NCBI GenBank assembly: GCA_024230695.1
Contig: JAAERC010000658.1
Span: forward strand, 1 to 18,690
Source: Candidatus Zixiibacteriota bacterium
GTDB lineage: Bacteria; Zixibacteria; MSB-5A5; GN15; PGXB01
Reading direction: 5' to 3'
Length of the DNA: 18,690 nucleotides
The notes beneath the pieces are model-generated. The model had not been told where the DNA came from. It saw only the letters and a list, made by a program, of their open reading frames with translations, and searched no databases. Shown in pieces: positions 6,748-14,636 of the stretch. The translations under genes were made by a program, and so were the position numbers. Position 1 is the first letter of the stretch, and the number at the start of each line of letters is the position of its first letter.

Positions 6748-7015
<268 letters not shown>

Positions 7016-7029
7016 TATTCTATTTTTTA

Positions 7030-7102
7030 TGGAGCAGAGCGGTCTCGAACCGCCGACCCCCACGTTGCGAACGTGGTGCTCTCCCAACTGAGCTACTGCC
7101 CC
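7030..7102 (-). tRNA. tRNA-Ala (anticodon CGC)
   Basis: A complete 73-base cloverleaf reads on the reverse strand. Acceptor GGGGCAG pairs with CTGCTCC, including the G3-U70 wobble that is the alanine identity element. The D arm is GCTCAGTTGGGAGAGC. The anticodon stem CCACG/CGTGG holds the loop TTCGCAA (anticodon CGC, reading GCG). The T arm contains GGTTCGAGACC. The discriminator is A, and CCA is not encoded. Confidence 0.97.
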
Positions 7103-7109
7103 ATCGCGT

Positions 7110-8871: not shown

Positions 8872-9741
8872 TTATTTACGACCCTCTTTATTTAATGATT
8901 TATTGGGTTGGTACCGTTGGATAAGAGTCTTCAAGCCTGATGGCCGGAAGGTTAATAATGAGATGTTTTCTAATTTCCCTTTGGTTTCAGCTGACAAGTC
9001 AGTTTGCCCCGATTCGATACTCGAGTAAACAATTTCAGCCGCAATATTGTTATGATGCAGGCAAGATAAGAATGTACTGCTGCTCCAAACCGCCTCATGC
9101 ACACTTTTCATATCTTTTGCCAGTAACCCGAGCAGATGCTCCTCGGCATCGACAACAATGTCGATTTGTTGACCAGGCCAAATCTCCAACGCTGAATCTT
9201 GCCCAATTAGTTTTTGAGTTATCACTCCCGGTAACTGTTCCTCATTATAAACTCTACAAACCACACAAACACCCCTGTCTGCAGTCTCTTTAAGGCAATC
9301 GGCAAGCAAGCCAAAAGGCCCGGGAAACAGATCACAAAGAACAATGCCTTTGGCCCTTTTCAGTATAGCTTTGCTCTGTTGGATAACTCGATCCACCGAT
9401 TTAAGATGATAAATCCCATCATCCTGTTGGTGACTTGAGAGAAATTGCAGCGCCCGGTCAGCATCACGACTGTTCTGCTGAAAGCGCTGTTCGAGATTAT
9501 CGAGCAGTTCAGCCGGAGGCACGGCACGGCAAAGCCTTTTTTCACCCACCTCAACAACAATCGCTCCTTTGTCCTCGAGAGCCGCTATTGCTTTGTATGT
9601 ATTGGGCGGCTGTTTGCCGATAGCATGGCTGATTCGATAACCGGTAGCTGGAGAATTTTTTACAAGAAAACCATATACGAGAGCCTCGATCTCGGTGAAT
9701 CCCAGAGCCTGCAAAGGCTTTATATAATCTTTAATTATCAT
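8872..9741 (-). CDS. TrmB-family transcriptional regulator
   Basis: This 289-residue regulator has an N-terminal winged helix-turn-helix (about residues 8-70: LQALGFTEIEALVYGFLVKN, then GYRISHAIGKQPPNTYKAIA and LEDKGAIVVEVGEKRLCRA), the pattern of the TrmB/sugar-specific family. A coiled segment follows (LLDNLEQRFQQN). The C-terminal region (about 100-240) contains AKGIVLCDLFPG and VDAEEHLLGLL, like the PLD-like effector module often attached to this HTH. The start chosen is ATG 9741. An in-frame TTG 21 bases upstream lies inside the promoter and operator and is rejected. With the -10 box only 6 bases before the ATG, the message is probably leaderless. The gene is first in an operon with two tiny membrane proteins. 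The family is best known in archaea, and the ligand is unknown. Confidence 0.85.
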   Translation of the reverse strand: MIIKDYIKPLQALGFTEIEALVYGFLVKNSPATGYRISHAIGKQPPNTYKAIAALEDKGAIVVEVGEKRLCRAVPPAELLDNLEQRFQQNSRDADRALQFLSSHQQDDGIYHLKSVDRVIQQSKAILKRAKGIVLCDLFPGPFGLLADCLKETADRGVCVVCRVYNEEQLPGVITQKLIGQDSALEIWPGQQIDIVVDAEEHLLGLLAKDMKSVHEAVWSSSTFLSCLHHNNIAAEIVYSSIESGQTDLSAETKGKLENISLLTFRPSGLKTLIQRYQPNKSLNKEGRK

Positions 9742-9763
9742 ATTGGTAGTATATGCTACCAAT
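9742..9763. promoter_or_regulatory. Palindromic operator overlapping the TrmB-family gene promoter
   Basis: Arms ATTGGTAG (9742-9749) and CTACCAAT (9756-9763) are perfect complements around a 6-base centre. The site covers the -10 box and abuts the start codon, a position suited to autorepression. The binding protein is inferred to be the adjacent regulator. Confidence 0.7.
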
Positions 9764-10840: not shown

Positions 10841-11683
10841 TCATGGACGTGCAAGTGTATCAATCAATTTATCACAACCGCCATTTTTTATAAATTCGGC
10901 ATGGTCACCGACGTTCTCAAATTTCCGCCCAACAATTTTGGCGCACTCAAACTCATAATTTGTGTGTTTTAAAAATCTATCAACTATCTCTACAGCTTTG
11001 GGGTCTTTAAAATCAACTTTGCTGCCTTGTTCGCTGGCGTTTTTCATTCCATTGATCCATATTGCGGCTCCTAATGCCCCGCACGCGCCTCCGCATAAGC
11101 CGATTCCTCCCGCAAATCCCGAAGTCATAACAGCATGTAAATCGGAAACGCCCATTTTGCGTGCCAACACTGCCGCACAACTTACCGGTGCTGATGGTGC
11201 TTCAACATATTTTTCAGATAGTACAGAATTTATCTCATTAAATGCTACCGGGGCATATTTTGAGGCCTTGCGGAAACATCCGATAGTCCCGCCTTTGATA
11301 AGAAAAAAGACAAACATCTGCATTGCTGTTGAGGACTTATCTATTTCAGTAATTTCAAAACAATTAATATTTTTATTTAAGTCATGGAACGATTTCACTA
11401 ATCTTTGTGCCGCGATAATTGTTCTGGTTTCAGCTTCTGGACCAGAACCAAAAAGTCGATAAACCTCTGCTCCGGCGGCAAGAACTGCCCCCCAAATCAT
11501 GCCACACTGATAACCATTTTGCATTATTCCGCCCGCCAAAGGCGAAGAGGAGTGTTCCTCTTCTTTTAAATGCTGATCATATGCTTTGTTGAGAACTCCC
11601 AACAACGTTTCTGATCATGTTCCGACTTTCAGAAAAGTACGAGTTGTTTTCATTGTTGGTATTTTATTTTTATCTTTTGACAT
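10841..11683 (-). CDS. Duplicated C_GCAxxG_C_C redox protein with in-frame UGA (candidate selenoprotein)
   Basis: The start is ATG 11683, with AGGAG 5 bases before it. The frame gives 280 codons, interrupted only by TGA at 11617-11615 (codon 23, in VGT-[UGA]-SETLLGVL), and ends in another TGA. The protein is two copies of the C_GCAxxG_C_C redox family. Domain 2 keeps Cys169 (PVSCAAVL), Cys197/Cys201 (GLCGGACGALG), Cys247 and Cys270. Domain 1 keeps Cys60 (GYQCGMIWGA), Cys108 and Cys136, and its first Cys would be codon 23, the UGA. Selenocysteine there fits a redox role and a SECIS-like hairpin follows. A nonsense mutation or base-call error in a Cys codon is the alternative. Translation from codons after the UGA lacks a ribosome site. 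No Sec machinery lies in the window. Family assignment is fairly sure and Sec insertion is unproven. Confidence 0.75.
11586..11605 (-). promoter_or_regulatory. SECIS-like hairpin downstream of the in-frame UGA
   Basis: On the reverse strand TTGTTG (11605-11600) pairs perfectly with CAACAA (11591-11586) around the loop GGAGTTCT. The loop opens with GG and begins 16 bases after the UGA. This is near the layout of bacterial SECIS elements, which sit just after the UGA and need a G at the start of the apical loop. Function is inferred. Confidence 0.5.
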
Positions 11684-11727
11684 AACATCTCCTATAATAG
11701 AATATACTTAATTGCTTAAAATTCATT

Positions 11728-12074: not shown

Positions 12075-12111
12075 CTGTTGCTATACTCCACCCGTTGGTA
12101 AGACAATTCGT

Positions 12112-12144
12112 CGCCACCCAATTTATTTGGGTGGCGTTTTTTTT
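12112..12144 (+). terminator. Strong Rho-independent terminator of the structured RNA
   Basis: CGCCACCCAA (12112-12121) pairs perfectly with TTGGGTGGCG (12127-12136) around a 5-base loop, followed by eight T. A second CCACCC at 12088-12093 could compete for the GGGTGG arm. Confidence 0.93.
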
Positions 12145-12196
12145 GATTATTTTTTGGTCAATCAAACTCAAACAAACCTTTTTGGAGGATTCTAAA

Positions 12197-13192
12197 ATGC
12201 GTCATTTTTCTGTAGCCGCCGGAGAATTTAACGATGTTACGATCATGCGCTCCAAACTACTACGGGCCGCCCGCAAATGGTTCGACAACAACTCATTTAT
12301 GGAGATCAGTGTCCCGCATATTACCGGCGCCACCGGTTCATGCGAATGGTTTCCCAATGCGATGCCGGTCACGATGTACAATGAACAAGGAAGTCAAGCC
12401 GATATGTTCCTGCGTCAAACCGGACAACTTTATCTCGAGGCATTCACCGTGCCGCATAACCGGGTCTTTACAATCGGACCATCATTTCGCCAGGAACGAA
12501 AAGTAACCAATCGGCATCTTTGCGAATTTACACTTATTGAATTCGAGGGCCGCGATTTTGAACTGGACGGCTTGATGGACAACATCGAGGAACTGATAAA
12601 AGTGATGTATGGCGAAGCTCACGACATCTATACTAACCAACAATTGGAGATGTATGTCAGCCAGCCTTTTGCCAGGGTCAGTTATGGCGATGCTATCGAA
12701 ATGCTGACTAATAACGGTTATGAAATCAGTTTTGGCGATGATCTCGGAGATGTCGAGGAACAGGCGATTTGCAGGTTTAATAACCAGATGCCGACCTTTG
12801 TGACCCATTATCCGTCGAATCCAAAACCAAAAGAAGGCGGAGTGATAAAATTCTTCTCGATGAAACGCGAAAACGGCCACACCTTCTGCTGTGATTTATT
12901 ACTACCGATGGTTGGTGAATCGGTTGGAGGCGCTGTCAGAGAGGGTTCGGCCGATCTATGCAAAAAGCAGTTTGAGGAATCATATATGTTTGATCATCTT
13001 GTCGATGCCGGAGTTAATCCTGAGCAGTTTAAATGGTATTTTGAGGTTCTTGATAAGGGCCATGGTCAGTCAAGCGGATGCGGAATCGGGTTTGACCGCG
13101 TGGTACAGTCAATAATCGCGACCGAACAGAATAATACAAGCATCAAAGGCGCGGTGGAACTGCCCCGCTCCCCGGATTATCTGGTACCGTAG
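12197..13192 (+). CDS. AsnRS-like class II synthetase core, probable archaeal-type asparagine synthetase
   Basis: This 331-residue protein starts at ATG 12197, with GGAGG (12183-12187) 9 bases upstream. A longer in-frame start would run through the terminator and is rejected. It is a class II aminoacyl-tRNA synthetase catalytic core closest to AsnRS/AspRS. It shows the substrate-binding run LRQTGQLYLEAF (72-83), motif 2 FRQERKVTNRHLCEF (97-111), the VGESVGGAVREG segment and motif 3 GCGIGFDRVV (294-303). The N-terminal OB-fold anticodon domain of AsnRS is missing. Stand-alone AsnRS-like cores of this type are known in archaea as asparagine synthetases, making Asn from Asp with ATP and ammonia. 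An amino-acid-modifying or tRNA-independent paralog is an alternative. It stands alone behind the structured RNA. Confidence 0.8.
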   Translation: MRHFSVAAGEFNDVTIMRSKLLRAARKWFDNNSFMEISVPHITGATGSCEWFPNAMPVTMYNEQGSQADMFLRQTGQLYLEAFTVPHNRVFTIGPSFRQERKVTNRHLCEFTLIEFEGRDFELDGLMDNIEELIKVMYGEAHDIYTNQQLEMYVSQPFARVSYGDAIEMLTNNGYEISFGDDLGDVEEQAICRFNNQMPTFVTHYPSNPKPKEGGVIKFFSMKRENGHTFCCDLLLPMVGESVGGAVREGSADLCKKQFEESYMFDHLVDAGVNPEQFKWYFEVLDKGHGQSSGCGIGFDRVVQSIIATEQNNTSIKGAVELPRSPDYLVP

Positions 13193-13382: not shown

Positions 13383-14636
13383 ATGAGAACACAGGCTATC
13401 TTTCTAATTACAATTCTAATTTTCCTGATTGGAGCAACCGCCATGGCTCAGGATGAATCAACTTTCAAACAGACCCAGTTGACCGAAAAGATTTATCAGC
13501 TATCGACCGATCAAGGTGCCTACACCACCAATACACTTGTATTTGTCGGCAACGACGGATTATTACTTGTTGATACCGATATGGGGATAAACGCCGAGGA
13601 GTTCAAAAAAATTATCGACTCATTCGATAAAGGTATCCCGAAGTATATTATCAATACTCATCGTCATGTCGAACATATCGGCGGCAATGCGATCTTTGGC
13701 GATACTCCGGTAAAAATCGCACATTATCTGCTTCCGGAAAAACTGACCGAGGGATCATATATATTTAATGAATTCCCAAAAACGACCTATCCAAATATTA
13801 CTGTTGTTGATTCCTTGAATTTGTATTTTAACGACGAAAAAATAAGAATCGTTAATATGGGCGGTAGTCATGATGACAATGAAATATTCGTTCATTTTGT
13901 CGATTCAAAAGTGGTGCATCTTTCATCAGTGATAAATGGCAAAAATTTCCCATCAATTGATTCTGACGGTGACCTGTTTAAATTTCCCGAACTGATAAAA
14001 AAGGCACAAAATCTTTTACCCGAAGATGTTACAATCGTCTCGGGACATAATGAAAACAAAAAATGGTCGGACCTTCAGGATTGTTACGATATGCATATTC
14101 AAACGGTAAAAATCGTCAAAGACGGACTTGACTCTGGCAAAGATGTTGAAACGCTGAAAAAAGAAAAGGTATTATCAGAGTGGGAAGAGTTTAATCAAAG
14201 TTATGTAAACTTTAACGGGTGGATCGACTATATTGCGACCGCCTTGGAAGAACAAAAAGAACAACCGGATGAAAAGAAAAGTATCTTCAAACCACTGTAT
14301 CATGCATTAAAAGATGGTGGAATTGACAATTTCCTAAAGACTTACAATACCATGAAGGAATCCGATGAGTATCAGCTTGGCGGAGTTTATTTACTTATCA
14401 TCGGCGACAAGCTGAAAGACAAGGGTAAAATTGACGAAGCAATTGCAGTGCTTAAGCTTACTCTCGACGAATTCCCCAAAGACGATTATGGTTATTATAC
14501 CTGTTATATTTTGGCCAATATCTATAAAGACAAAAACGAGAAAAAGCAGGCGATCAAGTATTGCAAAAAGGCAATAAGACTAAATGCCGATTTTCAAGCG
14601 GGAAAAACTCTGCTTGATGAACTAAAGAAATTGTAA
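13383..14636 (+). CDS. Exported metallo-beta-lactamase-fold protein with C-terminal TPRs and altered metal site
   Basis: This is a 417-residue secreted protein. The signal peptide (residues 1-22, FLITILIFLIGATAMAQ) has cleavage likely after AMA. The metallo-beta-lactamase fold covers about 30-230, with TNTLVFVGNDGLLLVDTDMG and NTHRHVEHIGGN (91-102). The usual HxHxDH is HxHxEH here (His93, His95, Glu97, His98). His163 (GGSHDD) and His222 (VSGHNEN) are kept, but the bridging Asp, usually in a GD pair, is replaced by Ser181-Ser182 (VVHLSS). Two ligands of the second metal are therefore changed, and activity may be altered or lost. Residues of about 310-417 form helical TPR-like repeats (GKIDEAIAVLKLTLDEFPKD, KKQAIKYCKKAIRLNADF). 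The ribosome site is GAAGGGA. A GTCC-type hairpin follows the stop. Confidence 0.85.
   Translation: MRTQAIFLITILIFLIGATAMAQDESTFKQTQLTEKIYQLSTDQGAYTTNTLVFVGNDGLLLVDTDMGINAEEFKKIIDSFDKGIPKYIINTHRHVEHIGGNAIFGDTPVKIAHYLLPEKLTEGSYIFNEFPKTTYPNITVVDSLNLYFNDEKIRIVNMGGSHDDNEIFVHFVDSKVVHLSSVINGKNFPSIDSDGDLFKFPELIKKAQNLLPEDVTIVSGHNENKKWSDLQDCYDMHIQTVKIVKDGLDSGKDVETLKKEKVLSEWEEFNQSYVNFNGWIDYIATALEEQKEQPDEKKSIFKPLYHALKDGGIDNFLKTYNTMKESDEYQLGGVYLLIIGDKLKDKGKIDEAIAVLKLTLDEFPKDDYGYYTCYILANIYKDKNEKKQAIKYCKKAIRLNADFQAGKTLLDELKKL

Follow-up and report, generated by a model that had tools for sequence, protein, structure and literature searches.

An in-frame UGA, probably read as selenocysteine, in a two-domain C-GCAxxG-C-C family gene of a Candidatus Zixiibacteriota bacterium

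The 18,690-nucleotide stretch of Candidatus Zixiibacteriota DNA analysed here (the window) holds a gene that most probably, at about 95%, encodes a selenoprotein, the UGA at codon 23 being read as selenocysteine (Sec) via SelB and a bSECIS hairpin to give a two-domain product of 280 residues. What seems to be a gene broken by a stop codon is almost certainly intact. According to the proposed mechanism, SelB, recruited by the hairpin that starts at the UGA, would supply Sec-tRNA to the ribosome at codon 23, and the product would comprise two C-GCAxxG-C-C domains, the N-terminal one carrying Sec in place of its first conserved Cys. We infer both the insertion of Sec at residue 23 and the presence of the Sec machinery in the window's own genome. 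The features are collected in Table 1.

Table 1. Features of the selenoprotein gene and of its surroundings in the window
Feature	Positions	Strand	Basis or remark
Two-domain C-GCAxxG-C-C (PF09719) gene, probable selenoprotein	10841..11683	minus	280 codons and TGA stop
In-frame TGA, codon 23, probably read as selenocysteine	11615..11617	minus	Cys or TGA in 75/75 readable relatives
Shine-Dalgarno AGGAG	11689..11693	minus	5 bases ahead of ATG
N-terminal domain (Sec23, C60, C108, C136)	11210..11683	minus	alignment and models
C-terminal domain (C169, C201, C247, C270)	10868..11209	minus	alignment
bSECIS-type element: lower stem containing UGA, internal loop, upper stem	11574..11617	minus	58-nt fold
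Upper stem of 8 bp with AGUU apical loop (loop 11594-11597)	11586..11605	minus	17 nt after UGA
Signal recognition particle RNA gene, large bacterial type	6749-7014	minus	upstream of dnaX
tRNA-Ala(CGC) gene	7029-7103	minus	upstream of dnaX
TrmB-type transcriptional regulator	8872-9762	minus	TTG start
Asparaginyl-tRNA synthetase-like ORF	12095-13192		182.5 bits, cut-off 414
Metallo-beta-lactamase-fold protein	13383-14636		repeat-like C-terminal part

Reading frame and codon 23 among relatives

Inspection of the frame places the ATG start codon at 11683-11681 on the minus strand, and the TGA at codon 23 is the sole interruption of the 280-codon frame 11683-10841, with 257 codons staying open downstream of it. 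The start, the AGGAG 5 bases before it, the length of the frame and the lone TGA had all been reported by the first-pass annotation, made from the letters alone, and are confirmed here. Its remark that TGA is also an ordinary stop in this DNA holds as well, given that 4 of the 15 window ORFs checked, the selenoprotein gene counted in, terminate with TGA. For codons 24-153, dN/dS is approximately 0.14-0.18 against four relatives; ahead of the TGA it amounts to roughly 0.2-0.5 against three relatives, on 22 codons only and not computable for L002. The database record for the window protein (P0002) begins at codon 28, after the UGA.

A protein search returned 3002 homologues, the best 120 of which were listed. 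With the window's own record excluded, 97 of these 119 carry Cys at codon 23, while the other 22 start beyond it, as a gene caller would at a UGA. Using a 57-row alignment (the window and 56 of the 120 listed proteins) as query, a scan of the genome collection found 89 relatives, from which 80 loci were kept. Codon 23 is readable in 75 of them and reads TGA in 45, TGC in 16 and TGT in 14; TAA, TAG or another sense codon occurs at none of the 75. The five unreadable loci are either cut by a contig end (L024, L054, L073 and L076) or lack a recognisable N-terminus (L057). Both nearest relatives, L001 and L089, stem from separate MAGs and carry TGA at the homologous codon; L085 also has TGA, and L086 and L087 have TGT. 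The N-terminal peptide is recognisably conserved among the TGA relatives.

The first-pass annotation had put the gene forward as a candidate selenoprotein and had suggested aligning homologues in search of Cys or UGA at codon 23. All 75 readable loci display one or the other, which, along with the Sec genes of the nearest relative described below, supports the candidate. The opposite pattern that it had named, varied truncations in place of Cys or Sec, is absent at codon 23 of these loci. One TGA locus, L022, has a further in-frame stop (TAA at codon 33), its frame shifts past the conserved hairpin, and it looks like a damaged copy or an assembly error.

A maximum-likelihood tree was built from 74 rows (the window and 73 loci, L022 and L061 being dropped as too short). 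On it, at least 10 switches between Sec and Cys are counted (9-11 in bootstraps, 23.1 in shuffles), and well-supported branches alone force 3 changes. L001 is the window's partner on the tree (support 91/90), though no starred set contains the window. The Sec and Cys forms are intermingled, and an exchangeable redox position accounts for this better than mutation or sequencing error does.

Hairpin and selenocysteine machinery

Counted from the UGA, 58 nt of the window have a folding energy of -15.8 kcal/mol (z -4.0), which none of 200 shuffles equalled, and 36 nt one of -8.0 kcal/mol (z -1.19), which 20 of 200 shuffles equalled or bettered; by itself, the energy of the 36-nt hairpin is not exceptional. 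The bacterial bSECIS model, as stated in a figure legend, specifies a loop of 3-9 with a G among its first two positions, a stem of 4-16, a spacing of 16-37 and an MFE of -7.5 or below (PMC13188914). The window hairpin, with its AGUU loop, 8 bp, 17 nt and 36-nt fold of -8.0 kcal/mol, lies inside these limits, and the bare upper stem reaches -7.2 against the published -7.5. Neither this hairpin nor the known selenoprotein status of the family was mentioned in the first-pass annotation.

The folding of the region separates the two types of locus: the mean z is -1.72 for the 45 TGA loci and -0.06 for the 30 Cys loci (Mann-Whitney p 3e-7). This group p-value, like the others below, overstates independence because the rows are related. 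A rule-based scan, allowing a perfect hairpin under loop and spacing rules with a cut-off of -5 kcal/mol of our own choice, matched 30 of 45 TGA loci and 3 of 30 Cys loci; elsewhere within the TGA genes, 233 of 1885 places matched. Conservation was followed in an RNA alignment (A2) of 28 rows, made up of the window plus those 27 TGA loci, out of 45, that were picked for carrying the AGUU hairpin motif. Across these motif-selected rows neither the AGUU loop nor the G-C pair that closes it varies. In the upper stem 85.2% of the cells are paired, compared with 46.1% for the Cys loci (29 of 30, L077 excluded), whereas the lower stem, with 80.2% for Sec and 77.6% for the Cys relatives, does not discriminate. 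In 6 of the 28 rows C-G stands in place of U17-A28, a change that alters codon 28 (mostly Leu to Ser) as well as codon 32 (Asn to Asp). In the covariation analysis of A2, three measures, namely the cells paired, the cells changed on both sides and the score, surpass every one of 500 shuffles; 'pairs changed on both sides' is matched in 18 of these shuffles and 'further pair types' in 485. The AGUU motif is absent from 18 of the 45 TGA loci. A second bSECIS-like class, bulged and ending in a GUU loop, is common to the 14 of these that were aligned, mostly Chloroflexota (L004, L020, L028, L031, L040-L043, L049, L056, L058, L062, L064 and L065); the alignment excluded L044, L052, L060 and L080.

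Considering the machinery, DnaX was compared across 20 genomes tried, and the closest to the window is G001 (83% identical, the next 55%), a Candidatus Zixiibacteriota MAG that is the source of L001 and has the same codon-23 TGA. The first-pass annotation had called for a search for the selenocysteine genes; in this nearest relative SelA, SelB, tRNA-Sec and SelD are all encoded, SelD with an in-frame TGA of its own. Within the family of G001 the gene occurs in 4 of 15 genomes, as TGA in G001 and G055 and as TGT in G059 and G063, and a TGA-bearing SelD is found in all four. A wider survey covered the genomes of 50 of the 80 loci (27 TGA and 23 Cys). SelB is over the cut-off in 26 of 27 TGA genomes versus 16 of 23 Cys genomes (p 0.017, related rows) and SelA in 26 of 27 versus 17 of 23 (p 0.039, related rows); tRNA-Sec, with 24 of 27 versus 17 of 23 (p 0.27), is no significant discriminator. 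For L023, a TGA locus, tRNA-Sec was found and SelA and SelB were not over the cut-off, likely reflecting a gap in the MAG.

Alternative explanations for the in-frame UGA

A nonsense mutation turning a Cys gene into a pseudogene in the window organism would require a single base change from TGC or TGT to a codon that serves as stop elsewhere in the window. Such an event is difficult to reconcile with a TGA that recurs at codon 23 in 45 of 75 readable relatives of many phyla, never as TAA or TAG, with the at least 10 Sec/Cys changes on the tree, and with the 257 open codons past the TGA and the dN/dS over codons 24-153. Conservation of the TGA in relatives already largely refutes a mutation, and we regard it as very unlikely. 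The window being a single metagenome contig, a sequencing or assembly error at codon 23 may also be considered, but separate MAGs, L001 and L089 included, have TGA at the homologous codon, and an error would bring no fitting bSECIS hairpin; we deem it exceedingly improbable.

Translation could otherwise begin downstream, at TTG codon 27 or 28, resulting in a protein of 253-254 amino acids that lacks residue 23. The start of P0002 and those of the 22 of 119 homologues (best 120 of 3002) that begin past codon 23 agree with this, whereas the 97 others, as well as all 30 Cys loci, read through codon 23. Moreover, the Shine-Dalgarno sequence lies ahead of the upstream ATG, the N-terminal peptide is recognisably conserved among the TGA relatives, and the internal TTG codons sit within the hairpin stem, so that we consider a downstream start just as unlikely as the mutation. 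No support was found, codon 23 alone being considered, for a genome-wide reassignment of UGA, for example to Trp or Gly: 4 of 15 window ORFs stop at TGA, relatives show Cys rather than Trp or Gly at codon 23, and Sec genes are present in G001, leaving reassignment a negligible probability. Decoding of the UGA as Sec is the reading we favour.

Family membership, fold and surroundings

Regarding Sec23 in its protein context, PF09719 and TIGR01909 each match the window protein in two stretches, which identifies it as a double-domain member. The scores are 78.3 bits (cut-off 27) for PF09719 and 59.3 (cut-off 47.4) for TIGR01909, both obtained with C entered at codon 23. The likeness to the C-GCAxxG-C-C family consists of the matches of both halves and the conserved Cys pattern: C60, C108, C136, C169, C201, C247 and C270 are invariant in alignment A1 and position 23 is invariant as Cys/Sec in alignment A5, while in A6, the subset for the C-terminal domain, C112 (C270 of the window protein) is conserved to at least 90%, without being invariant. 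The first-pass annotation had aligned the two internal copies such that codon 23 falls on Cys169. The family profiles support this pairing, as the TIGR01909 match starts at residue 22 and the PF09719 match to 171-278 starts at profile position 9; the direct half-versus-half profile alignment, however, which sets C60 on C201 and C108 on C247, is weak (probability 20%, E 0.001) and stops short of codon 23.

The NCBIfam name of the TIGR01909 family, '(seleno)protein', allows for Sec, and PF09719 appears, in passages of one review, among the selenoprotein families, with WP_012158890.1 (PMC9312934). Passages of another list PF09719 selenoproteins in two forms, form 1 (MGD8741185.1) and form 2 (WP_012158890.1), with one Sec each (PMC13188914). 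The window gene is a further member of a family already including selenoproteins, and its novelty is limited. While the TIGR01909/PF09719 model covers about 120 positions, the window protein is a fused pair of domains of 280 residues with Sec in the first domain only; the comparison with forms 1 and 2 was made with table passages that omit the Sec position (PMC13188914), and literature passages on the family yielded no description of a two-domain form. Residues 22-119 also weakly match (24.7 bits, cut-off 325 bits) the HUGP/GUXX-star fusion selenoprotein (NF045501), for which two Sec residues are listed (PMC13188914). Among viral contigs, 18 stretches matched a pattern and 0 encoded a relative; the plasmid collection gave no match to the window protein, PHROGs contained no family for it, and sequence searches of the PDB with alignments A1, A5 and A6 returned weak chance-like matches only.

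With the whole predicted model, Foldseek matched split-Soret cytochrome c (PDB 1h21) at 13% identity and E 5.1. This cytochrome has an iron centre. It is not among the 50 matches listed for the domain model and, unlike it, the 280-residue translation has no CXXCH haem-binding site (by eye). Weak fold matches to the predicted model were also obtained for L-serine dehydratase (4rqo) and the L-cysteine desulfidase CyuA (9fsl and 9fyi). Kinship to these Fe-S lyases by profile was tried with a 16-sequence CyuA alignment and rejected (hhalign probabilities 6.4, 8.2 and 1.6%), and PF03313 (SDH_alpha / CyuA) does not appear in the Pfam search at E values up to 1. Together, the split-Soret fold match and the weak Fe-S lyase matches suggest that an iron-sulphur site may lie near the selenocysteine. 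More speculatively, the N-terminal domain could harbour a metal or Fe-S site. C60, C108 and C136 may serve as its ligands, and Sec23 could be the redox-active residue beside it or the fourth ligand.

Among the 75 loci and the window, zinc-type/quinone oxidoreductases form a neighbour cluster at 18 loci and methyltransferases one at 14; these genes lie up to about 6.5 kb away and are not adjacent in every case. The oxidoreductase gene lies directly upstream in L014, L043, L044, L048 and L059, and the methyltransferase gene directly downstream in L014, L018 and L048. The window has neither of these clusters and no recurring neighbour (its clusters span at most 2 loci), thus no function was drawn from the neighbourhood. 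Concerning the other features in Table 1, the TrmB-type regulator shares the strand of the selenoprotein gene, the matches of the metallo-beta-lactamase-fold protein are far below resistance-family cut-offs, and ORF 12095-13192, which lacks the first approximately 120 profile positions (the anticodon-binding part), is perhaps an asparagine-synthetase-like paralogue.

Aggregated, these findings describe a well-supported selenoprotein that was truncated by automatic gene calling, its own database record starting past the UGA. With 45 Sec versions, 30 Cys versions and repeated switches between the two, the relatives constitute a clean natural experiment on what selenium contributes at one site. 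A tentative and rather unlikely extension is that Sec23 sits at an Fe-S or other metal site of a helical domain resembling split-Soret cytochrome or Fe-S lyases, as a ligand of a labile iron or as a redox partner, the family then being a selenium-tuned Fe-S protein across many phyla of uncultured anaerobes in which Cys and Sec were exchanged repeatedly. If true, the Fe-S idea would bear on the use of selenium at metal centres.
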